Positions 11,167 to 33,070 of a stretch of 64,000 bases of DNA are shown here, in pieces. Position numbers and translations under genes: made by a program. The DNA comes from Rhizobiales bacterium 62-47. GTDB taxonomy: Bacteria; Pseudomonadota; Alphaproteobacteria; Rhizobiales; Xanthobacteraceae. Position 1 is the stretch's first letter. Each line of letters begins with the position of its first letter. Under the pieces are notes generated by a model. The model made no database searches, was not told the DNA's origin, and saw only the letters and a program-made list of their open reading frames with translations. The DNA lies in assembly GCA_001899255.1 (NCBI GenBank), contig MKVX01000018.1, positions 1,303,150-1,367,149 on the forward strand, given 5' to 3'.

Positions 11167-11931
11167 ATGCGGACGCTGCTAGCGACGTTCGCGGTTGCGA
11201 TGGCGGCCACGACAACTGCCAGCGCAGCCGACTGTCCGCACGAGGGCGCGCTTGGCACCTCGCGGGTCATGCAAGTCGACGTTGCCCACTTCCCGCGCGT
11301 TGGCATCAAGAGCTTTCCGCAAACCTTGCCGCTGCAGGACAAGGAGGTCGTCCTGACCTTCGACGACGGCCCCGCCGCCCAGACGTCGCAGATACTGGCG
11401 GCGCTGCGTAGCGAATGCGTTCGTGCGACCTTCTTCATGGTGGGCAAGGGTGCGCAGGAGATGCCGGCGATGGTCAAACGCATCGCCGCCGCCGGCCATA
11501 CTGTCGGCCATCACACATGGTCGCATCGGCATCTGAACAAGCTCAGTCACGCTGCCGCCGTGGAGGAGATCAATCGCGGGATTGCCGCTGACGAGACCGC
11601 CCTGAACGGCGTCAGCACGACATCGCCAAGCACGCCGTTCTTCCGTTTTCCCTATTTCGAATCCACGCCGGCACTGCTCGACGAGTTGCAGTCGCGCGGC
11701 ATTATGGTATTCGGCGCCGACCTGTGGGCGAGCGATTGGGAACGGATGACACCCGACCAGCAGCTCAAGCTTCTGGTCGGGCGGCTCGAGGTCGCACGCA
11801 AGGGCATCATCCTGCTCCACGATCCCCGCGCCCAAACTGCCGCAATGCTGCCCGCGTTTCTCCGCTATTTGCGTGAACATGGCTACCGGGTGGTCCATAT
11901 CGTTCCGGCCGCAGCAGGCAAACATTCCTAG
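11167..11931 (+). CDS. Exported polysaccharide deacetylase, NodB domain (first of a tandem pair)
   Basis: Predicted metal-dependent N- or O-deacetylase acting on a surface or periplasmic polysaccharide. A clear Sec signal peptide (MRTLLATFAVAMA...ASA) leads into a CE4/NodB domain. The first metal motif is TFDDGP, the second is HxxxH in HHTWSHRHLN, and later motifs are RFPYFE and LLHDPRA. The start at 11167 has CGGAAAG upstream and gives a textbook signal; ATGs at 11110 and 11140 would bury it. The mature start ADCP and a shared LGTSR...LPLxxxEVVLTFDDGP block show common origin with the next gene. Substrate is unknown; nodulation factor, peptidoglycan or exopolysaccharide are all possible. Confidence 0.9.
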   Translation: MRTLLATFAVAMAATTTASAADCPHEGALGTSRVMQVDVAHFPRVGIKSFPQTLPLQDKEVVLTFDDGPAAQTSQILAALRSECVRATFFMVGKGAQEMPAMVKRIAAAGHTVGHHTWSHRHLNKLSHAAAVEEINRGIAADETALNGVSTTSPSTPFFRFPYFESTPALLDELQSRGIMVFGADLWASDWERMTPDQQLKLLVGRLEVARKGIILLHDPRAQTAAMLPAFLRYLREHGYRVVHIVPAAAGKHS

Positions 11932-12007
11932 TCGCCACTTCGGTGCCGGTTGGTTAAGGCCTCGTTCATTGGCCGACATTAGTTTGTGCGCAAACACAGT
12001 TTCGAGG

Positions 12008-13315
12008 ATGCCGTTGCCAACTGCTAGTGCTGGAATGCAGCCGGTCCGCATGGGCCGCTCCCTGCCCTCTTGGTTGGGCGGTTGCCTGGCTATCGCGATC
12101 TGCATGTCGCAGCCTTCGCTGGCCGCCGATTGCCCGGGCAATCCCGATGCTCTCGGTACTTCGCGGACACTGGTTGTCGACCCGATGGAGCATCCGCGCA
12201 TCGGCACCATGCAATATCCCGAGACGTTGCCCCTGCGCGACCACGAGGTGGTGCTGACCTTCGACGACGGGCCGCTGCCGCCGCATAGCAATCAGGTGCT
12301 GCAAATCCTCGCTTCGGAATGCGTCAAGGCAACGTTCTTCATCATCGGCCGGATGGCACACCAGTTTCCGGAGGGCGTCCGGCGCGTTCGCGACGCCGGC
12401 CACAGCGTCGGCACGCACAGCGAAAACCATCCGCTGAATTTCAACAAGATGTCGCCGGAACGTATCAAGCAGGAGATCGATGACGGCATTGCCCACACCG
12501 CGGCAGCGCTCGGCGACGGCTCATCGCTGGCGCCGTTCTTCCGCGTGCCGGGGCTACGCCGCGGCGAAGTGATGGAAGACTATCTCGTGTCGAAGGGCCT
12601 GCAATCGTGGAGCGCCGACTTCCCGGCTGACGACTGGCGGCATATCTCTGCCGATCAGGTCTACAACTACGCCATTTCGCGGATCGAGGCGAAAGGCCGC
12701 GGCATCCTGTTGCTGCACGATATTCAGGCCAGAACCGTTGCGGCGCTGCCGCGTATTCTGCGCACCCTGAAGGCGCGCGGCTACCGCATCGTCCATGTCG
12801 TGCCCGCCACGCCGTCGCGACCGAAGACCCCGACGCAACCCTGGCAATGGCAGATGCATCCGGCGGCCGAGAGCGTGGCGATTTCGCATTGGCCACGCGT
12901 GCCGCGTTTTCTCTTCGTGAGCACCGCCACGTTGCCGGCTCCGGCGCTGAACGAGTCGGATCGGCTGGATAGTAGGCTGCTCGAAGTGCCAGCTTCGCTG
13001 CGGCAGACCCGGACATCGCGCGGACATGCCCCGCTGCCGCTCGATACGCCCTGGCCGCAGCAGGTGACACTGCAAGCGACGCGGACAGTGACTCTCCCCG
13101 TTCCGGAGCAGGCCATCTTCGCGCTACCCGAACGCAAGCTCGCGAGCAACTATGGCGTCAACCTTTTGCCGCGTAGTGTGCGGCCGCAGCCCGCCAACGG
13201 CAGCGGCAGCGGCAGGAACGTTGGGCGCGAAAGCTCCGCTCCCCTGCGGATCATTCCGGGGAGCGTCCCGATCGCCGAGCCCGGCTTGCGGCCGACATCA
13301 GCGGCGGCGCGCTGA
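12008..13315 (+). CDS. Exported polysaccharide deacetylase with C-terminal extension (second of the pair)
   Basis: A paralogue of the preceding gene, 76 bases downstream. After a hydrophobic signal (GGCLAIAICMSQPSLA) comes a NodB domain with TFDDGP, HSENHPLNFN as the HxxxH metal motif, FRVPG and LLHDIQA. Beyond the domain (from about residue 285) lies an extra ~150-residue stretch rich in Pro, Ala, Arg and Thr, low in predicted order and absent from the first copy. The start is uncertain: ATG 12008, TTG 12014 (better spacing from GAGG), ATG 12035 or 12050 all keep the signal peptide. Same predicted enzyme class; the tail may anchor it or bind a polymer. Confidence 0.88.
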   Translation: MPLPTASAGMQPVRMGRSLPSWLGGCLAIAICMSQPSLAADCPGNPDALGTSRTLVVDPMEHPRIGTMQYPETLPLRDHEVVLTFDDGPLPPHSNQVLQILASECVKATFFIIGRMAHQFPEGVRRVRDAGHSVGTHSENHPLNFNKMSPERIKQEIDDGIAHTAAALGDGSSLAPFFRVPGLRRGEVMEDYLVSKGLQSWSADFPADDWRHISADQVYNYAISRIEAKGRGILLLHDIQARTVAALPRILRTLKARGYRIVHVVPATPSRPKTPTQPWQWQMHPAAESVAISHWPRVPRFLFVSTATLPAPALNESDRLDSRLLEVPASLRQTRTSRGHAPLPLDTPWPQQVTLQATRTVTLPVPEQAIFALPERKLASNYGVNLLPRSVRPQPANGSGSGRNVGRESSAPLRIIPGSVPIAEPGLRPTSAAAR

Positions 13316-26321: not shown

Positions 26322-26594
26322 ATGAAACTCAAGTCAGTAATGCTTGGATTGGCCGCTGCGGGAGGCCTTGCGCTGAGTGCGGGCACGGCCTCCGCTGCCA
26401 TGCCAAATGGGCTCCCATCATCCAATCAGATCAACAACACCGAACAGGTCCGCTACGTCTGTAATGCATGGGGCCGCTGCTGGTGGCGCCCTAACTACTA
26501 TCGCGGTTACGGCTACTACGGCGGCCCGCGGCGCTACTATGGACCGCGCTACTACGGCGGAGGTCGATACTACGGCCGACGTCATCGGTGGTGA
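26322..26594 (+). CDS. Small secreted Tyr/Gly/Arg-rich protein
   Basis: A 90-residue precursor. An excellent AGGAGG ribosome binding site precedes ATG 26322. A Sec signal (MKLKSVMLGLAAAGGLALSAGTASA) is cut near residue 26. The mature 64 residues carry one Cys pair (VCNAWGRCWW), then a run of Tyr, Gly, Arg and Pro (for example GGPRRYYGPRYYGGGRYYG). It resembles other short exported YG-rich rhizobial proteins of unknown role, related in style to the GCG_CRPN protein at 46250 but without its GCG motif. Structural, surface-adhesive or metal/nucleic-acid binding roles would all be guesses. Confidence 0.82.
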   Translation: MKLKSVMLGLAAAGGLALSAGTASAAMPNGLPSSNQINNTEQVRYVCNAWGRCWWRPNYYRGYGYYGGPRRYYGPRYYGGGRYYGRRHRW

Positions 26595-26743
26595 GCTACC
26601 GACATCTGGACAGCGACGCGAACGAGGGCCTCCGGGCCCTCTTTTCGTTGCGCGGCCGTGCTTCCACTTCTGTAAGAAGTCGATTGAGGAACCGATGGCC
26701 CTTGCCTTGCAGGATAAGTCTGCTAAGCGGGAGGCAGTTACCT

Positions 26744-26820
26744 GCGCTCGTAGCTCAGCTGGATAGAGCATCGGATTTCGATTCCGAGGGTCGGGAGTTC
26801 GAATCTCTCCGAGCGCGCCA
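26744..26820 (+). tRNA. tRNA-Arg (anticodon TCG)
   Basis: A 77-base tRNA with encoded CCA. Acceptor stem GCGCTCG/CGAGCGC with discriminator G, D arm GCTCAGCTGGATAGAGC, and anticodon arm CGGA-TTTCGAT-TCCG giving UCG, which reads CGA and CGG. The T arm is GGGAGTTCGAATCTCTC. An accessory-looking set of genes follows directly downstream. Confidence 0.95.
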
Positions 26821-26903
26821 TTGCTATTCCGGGCCCTATTTGCACTGACCGGGAACCTGACGGCCTGTTCGGCGTTTTCGTCATTCTGGGTGCAGGTGCC
26901 AGG

Positions 26904-29315
26904 ATGGTCGATCAGCCGCCGTCGCTCTCACGCCATCTCGGCTTGGGTGAACGCATAGAGTCGGCGGCAGCAAACGCCAGTCCCGTCGATCCGGTACGGG
27001 TTGCAGCAATCCTGGTGTCCGCCGCAATCATTCTCGCGGCGTTGTATTATGGGCGCGACATCCTCGTTCCGCTGGCATTGGCCTTCCTGCTTAGCTTTGC
27101 CCTCAATCCGGCTGTGACACGTCTAAGGCGTCTGGGTCTGCCACAGATCGTGGCGGTGATCACCGTTATGACGGTGGTGTTTTGCGTCCTCGCTGGATTC
27201 GCACTCATTCTCGGATCGCAGGTGCGCACTCTCAGCGTGGAGTTGCCGAACTACCAATCTACCATGCGGACCAAGCTCGCTTCTTTGCGCGAGAGCTTGA
27301 ATGCGCCCGGCATGTTCGACGGTGCGTTGAAAACGATCGATACCCTGCAAAAGGAAGTCGAGGAAAAGAAAGAGCCGCCGCAAGCCAATGGCGCGAAAGC
27401 CCAACCTGTCGAGATCGTTCCGACTCAAGAAAGCGCCTTTCACCAAGCTCTCACATGGCTTGGTCGCGCCGCGGAGCCACTGGCGACAGCGGGCATTGTG
27501 GTGGTCTTCGTTTTCCTCGCGTTGCTGGACCGGTTGGACCTGCGCGATCGCTTCGTGCGTATGCTGGGGGCGAATATTCACCGCTCTACCGATGCGATGG
27601 ACGAGGCCGGAGCGCGCATCAGTAAATATCTTTTGATGCAACTCATCGTCAACACGACATATGGAGCGCCGATCGCGCTCGGGCTATGGCTAATAGGCGT
27701 CCCCGGAGCCATCCTGTGGGGGACTGTCGCTGCGACGATGCGCTTCGTTCCCTACGTTGGCCCTGCTATCTCCGCGATCTTTCCGATCGCCCTTGCGTTC
27801 GCAATCGATCCGGGATGGCACATGGTGCTATGGACCGTTGCGCTGATTGTCACGCTGGAGCTTGTCAGCAACAACATCGTTGAGCCCTTGCTTTACGGAT
27901 CGAGTACCGGCCTGTCGGCGATGTCGCTGATCGCAGCTGCGATCTTCTGGACTGCTCTATGGGGCCCGATCGGACTTGTTCTATCGACCCCGCTCACCGT
28001 CTGTGTGCTCGTAATAGGTCGGCATCTTCCGCAACTACAGTTTCTTGACGTTCTATTGGGGTCTGCTCCAGCGCTTGACCTTCCGACTCGCGTCTATCAG
28101 AGACTGATCGCAAATGATCCCGATGAGGCAATAGACATAGCAAATACGGCGATTGAGAGTAGCTCGGTCACAGAGTTCTATAACGACGTGGGCATAGAAG
28201 TTCTGCGCCAAGCCAGTGAGGATCACGGCGGTGTGGCGACCGCCGAACATCGACTTCGAATCTCCAATGGCATGGATGCCCTTCTGGAGGATATCGGCGA
28301 ACAGTATCCACCCAAGATCGATCCCTTGCAGAGACCGTCCGTCGTCTGCATTGGCGGAAAATGGGAGATCGATACTATCGCGGCCATGATGCTAACGCAG
28401 GCTCTGCTGCTGAAAGAGATTGCGGCTCATGCGCGTCCGGCGGCGTCAATCAACGCAGATTATATCGCGAAGCTCGATCTGGAAGGCGCAAAAACTGTTT
28501 GCCTGAGTTATTTCTCCAGCGAGCCGGCTATCCCAGCCCGCCATTTCTGTCGACGCCTGCGTCGCCGTTGGCCAGACCTGAAGATCGTTCTGGCTCTTTG
28601 GAATTCCCGTGCCGAGCTACTCACCGACGAGAAGATAAAAAGCATAGGAGCCGATGAGGTCGTAACATCGATCGATGAGGCCGTGCAGAGGATCCATCAG
28701 ATGTTGTCACCAGGGCCGGAGCAGGATTTTCTGCAGCCCGAGATCCCCGACAATGACGCCGAACGCGTGAACGCGCTGCATGCGACGGGGATTCTCGATG
28801 GCCATGCTCAGGAAGATCTTGATGCCCTCGCCAAGCGCGCCGCCGATGTATTCAATACGGATTTCGCGATGATATCGCTTATCGACGAGACTCGCGAGAT
28901 CGTAGCCGGGAAGAGCGGTACGCTTCCGCGAAATTTGACGGACGACTTTGGAAAGATGGTTTCCATGCCGCGCGATCATTCGATTTGCGGTCATGTCATC
29001 GCGGACGGTGAGACGCTCGTCATTCCCGACATTGAGCGTGACCCGCGCTTTGCTGATAATCCCGCGCTCGATATTCGCGGTGTCCGGTTTTACGCCGGTG
29101 CCCCTCTTCGAACCAAAGAGGGATATGTTCTTGGAACGCTATGCGTTCTTGATCCAGAACCGCGCACGCCCGATGAGAGCGAGGTCAAACTGCTCGAGTC
29201 TATGGCAGCAGATGCGATGCAGATCATTACGCCCGACAAGATTGGGGAAGAAATCCCCACAAAACAAAAGAAGCAAGCATCAACCGCCACTCTGGGACAG
29301 GCCATACCGAAATGA
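26904..29315 (+). CDS. AI-2E/PerM-type permease fused to a cobalamin-binding-like module and a GAF domain
   Basis: An 803-residue, apparently intact fusion. Residues 30-375 are an AI-2E-type permease (YqfA/PerM): several membrane helices, a large loop at 105-190, and the conserved TMRFVPYVGPAISAIFPIALAF and NNIVEPLLYGSSTGLSAMSL. Residues 395-470 look like the four-helix cap of B12-binding proteins (LIANDPDEAIDIANTA, then AEHRLRISNGMDALL). Residues 478-600 look like the following Rossmann B12 domain, but the DxHxxG His is missing (KWEIDTIA). Residues 635-775 are a GAF domain (HSICGHVI, GAPLRTKEGYVLGTLCVLD). The usual family length is about 350, so more than half is added. Permease substrate is unknown; the tail suggests signal-gated transport (inference). 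It sits 83 bases after tRNA-Arg. Confidence 0.85.
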   Translation: MVDQPPSLSRHLGLGERIESAAANASPVDPVRVAAILVSAAIILAALYYGRDILVPLALAFLLSFALNPAVTRLRRLGLPQIVAVITVMTVVFCVLAGFALILGSQVRTLSVELPNYQSTMRTKLASLRESLNAPGMFDGALKTIDTLQKEVEEKKEPPQANGAKAQPVEIVPTQESAFHQALTWLGRAAEPLATAGIVVVFVFLALLDRLDLRDRFVRMLGANIHRSTDAMDEAGARISKYLLMQLIVNTTYGAPIALGLWLIGVPGAILWGTVAATMRFVPYVGPAISAIFPIALAFAIDPGWHMVLWTVALIVTLELVSNNIVEPLLYGSSTGLSAMSLIAAAIFWTALWGPIGLVLSTPLTVCVLVIGRHLPQLQFLDVLLGSAPALDLPTRVYQRLIANDPDEAIDIANTAIESSSVTEFYNDVGIEVLRQASEDHGGVATAEHRLRISNGMDALLEDIGEQYPPKIDPLQRPSVVCIGGKWEIDTIAAMMLTQALLLKEIAAHARPAASINADYIAKLDLEGAKTVCLSYFSSEPAIPARHFCRRLRRRWPDLKIVLALWNSRAELLTDEKIKSIGADEVVTSIDEAVQRIHQMLSPGPEQDFLQPEIPDNDAERVNALHATGILDGHAQEDLDALAKRAADVFNTDFAMISLIDETREIVAGKSGTLPRNLTDDFGKMVSMPRDHSICGHVIADGETLVIPDIERDPRFADNPALDIRGVRFYAGAPLRTKEGYVLGTLCVLDPEPRTPDESEVKLLESMAADAMQIITPDKIGEEIPTKQKKQASTATLGQAIPK

Positions 29316-29508
29316 GATGGCGACAAGCACGAAATAGGCGCAACGCGAAGCCTTGACCGCCGCGCCACTCCACTTGGAATGCTGCTCTCGATGGAAATTG
29401 GTACATGGTCGAACTACGCGCCGGGGCCGGCCATGCCACGCGAACTTTAACTTAATTCGCTCGCCGGAACTTCCCTCGCCTCTGCATCGGGACGAGCCCG
29501 GCTCGCGC

Positions 29509-29667
29509 TCAGAATCGCTGCGCCGACGGCAGAAAGATTCCGAAGATCATCGCCCACAGTGAGAGCGTCAGTCCGAAACCGCTCCATATGAAGATGGTCA
29601 GCAATGCCTGCCCCTCTTCTGCGGAATGAGCCATCCGCCGCAACTTGCTATTGATAAACCTGCGCAT
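29509..29667 (-). CDS. 52-residue single-span membrane protein
   Basis: A short gene with AGGAGG nine bases before ATG 29667, a strong signal for such a small frame. The product starts with a basic, amphipathic part (MRRFINSKLRRMAHSAEEG) and then one membrane helix (ALLTIFIWSGFGLTLSLWAMIFGIFL), ending PSAQRF. The positive-inside rule puts its N-terminus in the cytoplasm. It lies opposite and between the permease fusion and the PilZ gene. No family is recognised; a small regulatory or accessory membrane subunit is plausible only. Confidence 0.65.
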   Translation of the reverse strand: MRRFINSKLRRMAHSAEEGQALLTIFIWSGFGLTLSLWAMIFGIFLPSAQRF

Positions 29668-29819
29668 CCACACTTTCCTCCTGCCGGGTCGTGCAATGAT
29701 GCGTCGATGGGTACCGCCGCAGGTTCAGCCCCAGGGCCCAATACTCACACCATCGTGAGCGCCGTTGCCATGTTTTGCTTCCGGTGCGGACCTAAGAATG
29801 CCCTTACGGGTTGCCATCG

Positions 29820-30059
29820 ATGGACGAACGTCGCAGGATTCATCGCCAGCGTGTATTCAAGGCCGGAGCGATTTCGTTCGGCGGCGCATCCATCGATTGT
29901 ACCGTTCGAAATCTGACATCGCTGGGCGCATCGCTGCAGGTCGCAAGCCCGCTCGGCATTCCCGACCGTTTCACGCTCTTGCTGCGAGCTGACGACACGA
30001 CGCGCGAATGCGTGGTCGTATGGCGAAAATTGAAACAAATCGGCGTGTCATTCTGCTGA
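29820..30059 (+). CDS. Single-domain PilZ protein
   Basis: A 79-residue protein that is one PilZ domain, the cyclic di-GMP receptor fold. The strand pattern RVFKAGAISFGGASIDCTVRNLTSLGASLQVASPLGIPDRFTLLL ends in a CVVVWRKLKQIGVSF strand. The RxxxR of the N-terminal c-di-GMP switch reads ERRRIHRQRVFKAG here, with several candidate Args, and the D/NxSxxG motif reads VRNLTSLGASL, with Thr instead of Ser. Binding is likely but not certain. The ATG at 29820 is used; a TTG nine bases upstream gives the same product with three more residues. No effector gene adjoins. Confidence 0.8.
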   Translation: MDERRRIHRQRVFKAGAISFGGASIDCTVRNLTSLGASLQVASPLGIPDRFTLLLRADDTTRECVVVWRKLKQIGVSFC

Positions 30060-30097
30060 ATTGATTCACCAAGGCGACTTCGAGAGGCTGCGTTGCC

Positions 30098-30355
30098 TCA
30101 CCGCTCGCCGGTACTGGTGGGCTGAAAGACCACAGGGCGCTCTTTGGCCCGCTTGCGTGCTGCCGCAACTGCGTTGGCAAAATCTGCGGCATCGAACCAG
30201 TCCAGCGACTCCATCGGTGCCGCCAGGTCATCTTCCCAGATCCGCGATACGCCGATGTCGAACTGGCCGTCGAGTTTCTTGTCGACAGCCTGAATACCAA
30301 GGCCAGTCACCGCCCATTGTCGCCCGAGCCAATAGATATCGCGGTGGAGCGTCAT
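30098..30355 (-). CDS. Small conserved hypothetical protein
   Basis: An 85-residue soluble protein, not recognised. The start at 30355 has GAGGAAA directly upstream, so I prefer it to 30394. It begins MTLHRDIYWLGRQWAVTGLGIQAVDKKLDGQFDIGVSRIWEDDL and ends in a helix (AADFANAVAAARKRAKERP). There are no cysteines, membrane segments or known motifs. It is convergent with the PilZ gene 38 bases away. The 400 bases upstream of it (30356-30758) hold nothing that I can support. Confidence 0.55.
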   Translation of the reverse strand: MTLHRDIYWLGRQWAVTGLGIQAVDKKLDGQFDIGVSRIWEDDLAAPMESLDWFDAADFANAVAAARKRAKERPVVFQPTSTGER

Positions 30356-30758
30356 TTTCCTCAGTACGAATGATTCGCCTGCGCCACAGGCCAATCTACA
30401 AATTGCTGCGTATCGCGCCCGGCTTCAATTCACCACGGAAACAGACCGCGCGGCTAACCGCTGTTTTCAACACCTTAAAGCGCGACCAATGCGCGCGGGC
30501 AGCTTGGAATATCTAGCCGGGACGAGTTCCCGCTCCGATTGCCCGGGAACGCCGGGCCGTGGTATTGCCTAATCTGCCGGTAAGTCGTTCGCGGTTGCCA
30601 TGACTTGGGCCCAGCACTACTCGAATTGACGGCATTGCAGTGCCAGCCCCACGTTCCGTCGTCTGCGGGCGACAAATGCCGCGTTGACGTGCCCGGACCG
30701 GCTTTGGCATAAACGAGACCGGATGGTGCGTTTGTAGCGTTACGACGACTGGGGCAAG
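30356..30758. other. Gene-poor spacer
   Basis: About 400 bases between a leftward small gene and the GrlR-like gene. It should hold promoters for both. Overlapping frames (30513-31142 on the minus strand among them) are antisense shadows of the GrlR-like gene. Confidence 0.4.
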
Positions 30759-31160: not shown

Positions 31161-32990
31161 TCAAACGCGATCGGAGCCAACCTCTGGAGGCGCGACGCGC
31201 GGCAGAACCATCCGAACACGCGTTCCTTCGTTGGGTGCTGACTGCAACTGGATGCGTCCACCCAGCCTGCTCGTCACGATGCTGTAGACGATGTGCAGGC
31301 CGAGCCCCGTTCCGCCCTCATTACGCCGCGTGGTGAAGAACGGATCGAATGCCCTGCGCCGAATCTCCGGGCTCATGCCGCAACCGTTGTCGGAGAACAG
31401 CACTTCCACGTGGTCGTCGCCGGACTCCTGAACCTTGATCTGAACTTCGCCTCCGCCCCCATCGGGGAACGCGTGCGCCACCGCGTTCAGGAACAGGTTG
31501 GTCAGCACCTGCCCGTAAGGACCAGGATAGCTGTTCATGATGAGGTTCGGCTTGCAGTCCACTGTCAGGGTCAGGTTCTGCTTGCGGACCCCGGGGCGCA
31601 GGCTCATCACCACCTGCTCGGTCAGGTCGGCAAGATCGAATGTGCGCTGGTCGGAATAGCTGCGATCTGCGGCCACCTGCTTGAACGATTGAATGAGCTC
31701 GGCGGCGCGATTCAGGTTCGCGACAAGTTGCGAAGCTGCGCTGCGGCTGGCCTCGATGAATTCGTTGAGACTTGAACGACGTAATTCACCGCGCGCGGCC
31801 TGCTCTGCGAATGCCGCCACCTTGCGCTCCAGCGACGAGGCCACGGTGAGGCTGATGCCAACCGGATTGTTGACCTCGTGCGCAACACCTGCCACCAGAC
31901 GGCCAAGAGCGGCGAGCTTTTCCGCCTCGATCAGCGAGTTCTGCGTTTCCGTGAGATTGCGCAATGCCGCTTCGGCGGCATCTTTTGCTTTGCGCATCTC
32001 GAACTCGACGCGCTTGCGTTCGCCGATATCCAGCGCAACGGTCACGATATTTTCGATCTCGCCATCCGAATTGCGCAGCGGCAATTTGTTGACGAGCCAC
32101 TGGCGCATCGCACCCGCGGAGTCGACATACTCCTCCTCGTAGAAGCCGAGTTCCTTGCCTGTCTCGATCACCTGCCGATCGTTGTCGTCGGTTTTCTGCG
32201 CGCCGTAGCGCGACATCAAATCGCTCGTTGTCCGGCCGATTGCATCCTCTGGTTCGATGTTGAAGATACGCGCCATGTAGCGGTTCATCAGCACGTAGCG
32301 AAGCTTCGTGTCCTTGACATTGATGACCGCAGGAACGGTGTCGATCACCTGCTGCAAGCGGCGGCGGCTTTCCGCGAGCGCCTGCTCCGCCCGTTTCTGA
32401 TTGGTGATGTCCCGAACCGTGCCCTCGTAACGGATCACCGTACCGGATTCATCGCGGATCGTCGTCGCGCTGTCAGACAGCCACAACATGGTGCCGTCGA
32501 GCTGTCTTACCTGATATTCAAATTCGCGAACCATGCCGTCGCGCGCCATACGCAACTGATACTCGGCCCGAACATCGGGGTCGACGTAAACGGTGTGGGC
32601 AATATCGACCACGCCTTCGATAAGTTCTTCCGGCGATTCGTAACCCATCATGCGCGCGAGCGCCGGATTGGCATTGAGCAGCAAACCGCCCGGCGTCGTC
32701 ACATAGATTCCGTCGAGCGAACTGTCGAACAGTTTGCGATAGCTTTCTTCAGCCTCGGCATAACGTCGCTCGGCAAGCGAGCGTCGCGCCGCTTCCTGTT
32801 TCTTCGCGGCCGGAGTGGCAGGCCCGAGCCAGAAACGCAGGCCGATGGCCATAGCGACAATGCCGAGGGCCAATCCGCCAAGGCCGACGGCGATGGAAAA
32901 TGCGTGCAGGTAAATAAAATCTGCCACGGATTGAGAAAAAATGGCGGCAAGCTGCCACGACATGAATGCGTTCGACCATGAATCTGACAT
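31161..32990 (-). CDS. Membrane-bound PAS sensor histidine kinase
   Basis: A two-component sensor of about 609 residues. One N-terminal membrane helix (about 30-55) is followed by a coiled linker, two PAS domains (about 82-197 and 210-327), a short coiled coil, a HisKA-type dimerisation domain with the phosphorylated His at about residue 371 in GVAHEVNNPVG, and a HATPase with NAVAHAF (N box), DNGCGMSPE (G1), FFTTRRNEGGTGLGLHIV (F and G2 boxes). The AHEVNNP form places it with the HPK4-like kinases. No response regulator is adjacent, so it is an orphan kinase. The start is the ATG at 32990; a TTG at 32999 is possible. Confidence 0.9.
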   Translation of the reverse strand: MSDSWSNAFMSWQLAAIFSQSVADFIYLHAFSIAVGLGGLALGIVAMAIGLRFWLGPATPAAKKQEAARRSLAERRYAEAEESYRKLFDSSLDGIYVTTPGGLLLNANPALARMMGYESPEELIEGVVDIAHTVYVDPDVRAEYQLRMARDGMVREFEYQVRQLDGTMLWLSDSATTIRDESGTVIRYEGTVRDITNQKRAEQALAESRRRLQQVIDTVPAVINVKDTKLRYVLMNRYMARIFNIEPEDAIGRTTSDLMSRYGAQKTDDNDRQVIETGKELGFYEEEYVDSAGAMRQWLVNKLPLRNSDGEIENIVTVALDIGERKRVEFEMRKAKDAAEAALRNLTETQNSLIEAEKLAALGRLVAGVAHEVNNPVGISLTVASSLERKVAAFAEQAARGELRRSSLNEFIEASRSAASQLVANLNRAAELIQSFKQVAADRSYSDQRTFDLADLTEQVVMSLRPGVRKQNLTLTVDCKPNLIMNSYPGPYGQVLTNLFLNAVAHAFPDGGGGEVQIKVQESGDDHVEVLFSDNGCGMSPEIRRRAFDPFFTTRRNEGGTGLGLHIVYSIVTSRLGGRIQLQSAPNEGTRVRMVLPRVAPPEVGSDRV

Positions 32991-33070
32991 CGCCCGCAAT
33001 TGAGCAGATGTGCTGTCAGTCTAACATAATTGGAGATTTCCCGCAGACGAACGAAATGCCGCCACGGCGT

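Follow-up and report, generated by a model that had tools for sequence, protein, structure and literature searches.

The window, by which we mean the whole stretch of 64,000 nucleotides analyzed here, carries a gene for a protein that joins an AI-2E permease to a tail with a predicted B12-type fold and to a GAF domain (Table 1). The two ends are recognized by Pfam, with AI-2E_transport (PF01594) matched at E 3.2e-48 (165 bits against a cut-off of 34.3) and GAF (PF01590) at E 1.6e-18 (68 bits against 22.4), and the permease part also matches a solved family member in structure comparison. No Pfam match lies between them, and about 230 residues of the protein are without an accepted Pfam or NCBIfam match. 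It is in this region that the predicted model places four helices (residues 393-402, 406-419, 422-443, and 447-467), followed by a Rossmann beta-alpha series. An earlier note on this DNA had proposed, from the letters alone, a permease, a B12-like module with a cap at 395-470 and a Rossmann domain at 478-600, and a closing GAF domain in one protein; the intact reading frame, the Pfam ends, and the predicted fold all agree with that anatomy.

Table 1. Features of the permease gene and its upstream region (positions in the window).
Feature	Position	Strand	Basis or remark
tRNA-Arg (TCG), upstream of the permease gene	26744..26820	+	ARAGORN
Putative sigma-EcfG general stress promoter, GGAAC-N16-CGTT	26852..26876	+	Motif match, 52 bases before ATG
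Permease gene (803 aa) encoding AI-2E permease, tail with predicted B12-type fold, and GAF	26904..29315	+	Single intact ORF
AI-2E permease domain, residues 35-371	27006..28016	+	Pfam AI-2E_transport; structure match TqsA 7nb6
Four-helix cap, residues 393-467, B12-binding_2-like; contains Y398 and R400	28080..28304	+	Predicted model, tail alignment
Rossmann B12-binding-like module, residues 480-601	28341..28706	+	Predicted model, structure comparison
Asp490 codon, at the DxHxxG cobalt-ligand His position	28371..28373	+	Profile alignment; Asp in 68/68 tails
GAF domain, residues 637-774	28812..29225	+	Top-scoring solved structure: GAF part of Pseudomonas aeruginosa diguanylate cyclase Dcsbis (4zmu)

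Of the surroundings first described, 83 bases do separate the end of the tRNA-Arg from the ATG, and a PAS histidine kinase reading frame lies at 31161-32999. Besides the window gene, the genome encodes two ordinary AI-2E proteins (open frames of 392 and 378 amino acids, 26% identical). Elsewhere in the window, ARAGORN reports a tRNA-SeC at 12714-12803 (-), antisense to a polysaccharide deacetylase reading frame (11873-13315, +), which is probably a false positive.

A tail with the predicted fold of cobalamin-binding domains

The relationship of the tail to B12 domains is best seen when relatives are considered together. A profile of 68 tails (A4), compared by hhalign with a profile of 13 true B12 domains that all match both Pfam B12 models (A5), gave a score of 64.0, a probability of 95.9, and a pair E of 6.3e-9 over 205 columns. 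The 22 controls scored far lower: 12.0 for the reversed B12 profile, 12.4 for GAF, and at most 16.2 for 20 column shuffles. Individual family matches point the same way: at E ≤ 1, 27 of the 68 tails match B12-binding_2 and 15 match B12-binding, and among 46 full-length proteins at E ≤ 0.1 the corresponding numbers are 12 and 7. One member found in the genome search exceeds the PF02607 cut-off at 24.3 bits (its whole-protein score is 20.6 against 23), and an NCBIfam scan of the 68 tails returned scattered weak matches, including the corrinoid protein MtgC at 8.2e-4. The window tail on its own reaches PF02607 only at E 0.12 (13.0 bits against a cut-off of 23) and has no PF02310 match at E 1, so that a family scan of the window protein alone misses the B12 likeness.

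The predicted structure contains both the four-helix cap and the Rossmann fold, as in the SCHIC domain of AppA, and its closest folds are a photocobilin and AppA SCHIC; among the best 50 structure matches listed, rows 1 to 47 are B12 or SCHIC proteins. The comparison of residues 390-610 or so with B12 structures, which the earlier note had suggested, returned a match to cap and Rossmann domain alike. As judged from the profiles, a likeness far above chance is strongly supported, as is, from the predicted model, the assignment of a B12-type fold to the tail. One could argue that the tail shares only a generic Rossmann resemblance and is unrelated to B12 domains, given that the window protein alone has no significant family match in this region and that searching PDB sequences with the tail profile gave nothing useful (best E 0.25). 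This is very improbable and largely refuted by the co-alignment of cap and Rossmann module (64 against at most 16.2), by the 47 leading structure matches, and by the member that passes the PF02607 cut-off.

The residues that define cofactor binding are a different matter. The DxHxxG His is present in all 13 true B12 domains, as is the GG pair. The profile alignment places D490 of the window protein, and Asp in 68/68 tails, on that invariant His, in agreement with the earlier observation that it is missing from the local sequence KWEIDTIA. The Gly of the motif aligns to A493 (Ala in 57/68, Gly in 2/68), and the GG pair after the fourth strand aligns to A564-L565, with Gly in 25/68 tails at the first place and in none at the second, directly followed by W566 (Trp in 57/68). 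No column between residues 482 and 496 has His in more than 2 of 68 rows, the window protein has none at 478-500, and the fullest His column anywhere in the tail reaches 23/68. What is conserved instead is a distinct set: Y398, R400, and D490 are identical in 68/68 tails, C482 is Cys in 66/68, R546 is Arg in 65/68, and R550 and R551 are Arg in 62/68 each. Such a set, within a fold stripped of its cofactor residues, would suggest a new job rather than decay.

Since none of the 68 rows retains the His, a photoreceptor or classical B12 sensor was set aside for the window protein: the cobalt-ligand His of CarH-type green-light photoreceptors is absent, and so is the haem-ligand His that AppA SCHIC has near the DxHxxG place. 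That the transporter could be gated or sensed by way of its tail, as suggested earlier, is a fair view, the tail being always fused to a permease in the members fetched; its extension to light or to haem or B12 chemistry is not supported for the window protein, given D490, the His-poor stretch at 482-496, and the loss of the second Gly.

It is nevertheless conceivable, if rather unlikely, that the tail still binds a tetrapyrrole independently of His, either hydroxocobalamin or haem, and thereby keeps the permease informed of redox, of light by-products, or of cofactor status. The closest folds, a photocobilin and AppA SCHIC, would fit this. In the parts of the reports available, AppA SCHIC took haem within the same fold, with a haem His shifted by two residues (PMC9144470), so that ligand positions can move, and the AI-2E protein HaAI-2E, with Arg in place of the ligand His, bound hydroxocobalamin and neither AdoCbl nor MeCbl (PMC11796333). 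The window tail may consequently still bind some form of cobalamin, and C482 could in principle serve as a ligand. Set against this are the scarcity of His throughout the tail and the second Gly that is lost in every row. In addition, the 20 families matched at E 0.1 by the 46 full-length members do not include AppA_SCHIC, and neither do the 25 families (of 46) listed for the 68 tails at E 1.

Distribution, architectures, and genomic site

All members compared carry a permease domain. PF01594 matches 46/46 relatives at E ≤ 0.1, the permease profile matches 80/80 member rows at 1.6e-76 or better, and at least 248 residues precede the tail in every reading frame fetched by the tail profile (class L066-L087, phylum L096-L119). 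The fusion occurs in 22 of 385 genomes sampled from the class, own genome included, as judged from the listing (24 places, all below 1e-30). At 1e-3 the tail profile matches 65 of the 385, of which 43 are weak, at 3.3e-7 or worse; eight of these weak loci were fetched, and the six that were scanned all proved to be methylthiotransferases (UPF0004 plus radical SAM), five of them with a weak B12-binding match, and were not counted as members. A draw from the phylum, which shares some genomes with that from the class, gave 30 of 398 genomes at 1e-10. The tail was also found on 205 plasmid records at 1e-3, mainly from Sinorhizobium and Rhizobium, and 14 plasmid records match the whole protein over 80% or more of its length, including Nitrobacter, Paracoccus, Acinetobacter, and a Comamonadaceae plasmid; no relative was found on viral contigs. 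The permease-tail fusion is widespread and not unique, and it is annotated simply as "AI-2E family transporter".

After removal of duplicates (L066, L067, L096, and L118), 49 of 76 members end after the tail, 26 continue into GAF, and one (L080, 673-3360, -) into a SpoIIE-type phosphatase, which is a possible signalling output; because part of the set came from a query containing GAF, 26/76 overstates the GAF share. In a tree of permease plus tail, one branch (SH-aLRT 99) unites all 26 GAF rows with one row lacking GAF. Besides alphaproteobacteria, this branch includes an Acinetobacter plasmid and two rows from Comamonadaceae. The Comamonadaceae rows group with the window gene (support 94), which may be a sign of transfer. 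The tree is of a quick kind, with the outgroup and four other rows on long branches. Parsimony counts two changes for GAF, of which the well-supported branches force one, and GAF was apparently added once, in one clade.

The genomic site gives further insight into how the gene may have arrived. A close match to the tRNA-Arg is present in all eight genus genomes searched, and the permease gene in only two, the own genome and one other (G001), where gene and tRNA counterpart lie on different contigs. In none of the seven other genus genomes does a permease gene adjoin the tRNA-Arg counterpart. Where both flanks match, L176 has about 0.7 kb in place of 26820-30674 (3.9 kb), and L175 has about 0.5 kb in place of 26561-30282 (3.7 kb). 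The spot is rearranged, with the tRNA inverted relative to its neighbours in L174, L175, and L177. The gene has a G+C content of 56.7% against 61.8% for the window. Insertion at the tRNA-Arg site would be the simplest reading, loss in the other genus genomes may be the alternative, and the gene is probably mobile.

Putative promoter box and proposed role

The perfect box upstream of the window gene corresponds to the EcfG1 motif of Rhizobium etli (PMC3892343); a variant, GGAAC-N17-20-GTT, is reported for Sphingomonas (PMC6599016). The exact box recurs near the start of 8 of 26 GAF members (on average 0.075 and at most 1 in shuffles; reversed 0; opposite strand 1) and of 4 of 48 members without GAF (shuffles: mean 0.105, maximum 2; reversed 0; opposite strand 1), rows with fewer than 150 upstream bases being excluded, which left 75 of 76. 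It is missing in 18 of the 26 GAF members, and several that bear it are close relatives. Across 33 loci with long flanks, several of them close kin, 17 of 28 boxes lie directly before the permease gene, as read from the listing. The window has three motif matches against 1.27 expected, and the own genome shows no genome-wide excess (88 matches against 121 for the reversed control). NepR is encoded in this genome, and its 3.1-kb nepR locus contains no exact EcfG motif copy. Contig C13 has five exact GGAAC-N16/17-CGTT sites between 142876 and 151714, within 9 kb around nepR (145437-145541), and the same region includes an ordinary AI-2E permease gene at 148643-149614. The recurrence before relatives suggests that the window gene is probably stress-induced.

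Exact EcfG-type boxes also stand shortly before small genes near the permease gene on plasmids (L058 at 11572, +, and 15401, -; L063 at 5963, +), the genes behind them being annotated as DUF3309, PRC-barrel, and CsbD. Several plasmid neighbourhoods contain genes that we take to be typical of general stress regulons. PRC-barrel and catalase appear in a table of PMC6599016, and PMC10734443, in the part available, mentions an AI-2E gene only as a regulon entry. The eight annotated plasmid loci have no single neighbour gene in common. By product name, and with no control set, two-component genes lie within 7 kb in five of the eight (L060, L062, L063, L064, and L065). On the Agrobacterium larrymoorei Ti plasmid (pTi CFBP5481; L062, 6899-12310), a permease without GAF is followed directly downstream by a separate gene for a GAF-domain protein.

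The explanation toward which we lean, by a modest degree, is that of a general-stress-induced AI-2E permease whose tail, a degenerate cobalamin-binding module of SCHIC/CarH-like fold, has taken on a regulatory role. Sigma-EcfG would drive production of the permease under stress. The tail, presumably on the cytoplasmic side, would contact a small molecule or a partner protein rather than classically ligated B12, through the conserved set of Tyr398, Arg400, Asp490, Arg546, Arg550, and Arg551, and would set permease activity, with GAF acting as a second input or a dimer contact. A more specific version, put forward only tentatively, is that the B12/SCHIC fold was converted into a sensor of a non-tetrapyrrole ligand, with the invariant Asp and the invariant cap Tyr and Arg forming a new pocket through which the permease would be gated while the general stress response is active.

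The direction of signalling could also be reversed, with the permease acting as the sensor (a transceptor) and the tail relaying its state, as SCHIC does to PpsR, to GAF, SpoIIE, or cyclase domains or to nearby two-component proteins. The SpoIIE phosphatase of L080, the cyclase that ends HaAI-2E, the two-component genes near five of eight plasmid permeases, the PAS histidine kinase of the window, and the downstream GAF gene on pTi CFBP5481 are all consistent with such a relay. We nonetheless consider it improbable, as most members (49 of 76) end after the tail, a GAF domain has no enzyme activity of its own, and no single neighbour gene is common to all eight plasmid loci.

If the regulatory reading is correct, it would connect the AI-2E family, which is poorly understood and usually named for the export of AI-2, with a sensor fold and with the general stress response of alphaproteobacteria. 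The EcfG-type box suggests when AI-2E permeases with this tail are made, some 230 previously unassigned residues gain a predicted fold, and Y398, R400, and D490 form a testable conserved set. To our knowledge, no earlier B12-fold regulatory domain is known to control membrane transport. A more general caution also follows: a B12-type fold need not imply B12 or light.

Relation to known systems

The new observations here are the EcfG-type box that recurs before relatives and the gene that stands beside a tRNA in this genome and is absent there in related ones. Our literature search for the architecture turned up no publication on the form with GAF, on the invariant Asp, or on a link to EcfG. 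The permease-sensor fusion itself is already known from one report (PMC11796333). The earlier view that no permease with this domain order had been described is partly wrong: HaAI-2E, which ends in a diguanylate cyclase, is described there, and the permease-tail core is common. The exact order with GAF was not found in print in our searches.

The transport activities associated with the AI-2E family are AI-2 export and Na+/H+ antiport. Its members may differ in function (PMC7221264). The E. coli AI-2 exporter TqsA (7nb6) is a chain of 340 residues with no tail, unlike the window protein. No LuxS match was found in the own genome, which makes self-made AI-2 unlikely as the substrate, and a role as exporter of self-made AI-2 is accordingly unlikely for the window protein.

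On the side of the tail, CarH/LitR, the photocobilins, and the B12 domains of MetH have the same two-part fold as predicted here. AppA SCHIC (4heh) and AerR (7te2) are regulators of photosynthesis genes that, in the available part of PMC9144470, hold haem or cobalamin via a His, whereas the window tail has no such His.

A close parallel is HaAI-2E (WP_052573826), in which an AI-2E permease is joined to a cobalamin-type domain (CBD) and a diguanylate cyclase, and which, lacking the light signature, served as a negative control (PMC11796333). Both proteins combine an AI-2E permease with a signalling domain and with a cobalamin-type domain that lacks the cobalt His, and HaAI-2E, being light-independent in the available description, is not a photoreceptor. 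They differ in the signalling domain, a diguanylate cyclase in HaAI-2E and GAF in the window protein, and at the ligand place, which by the published description is Arg in HaAI-2E and is Asp here.
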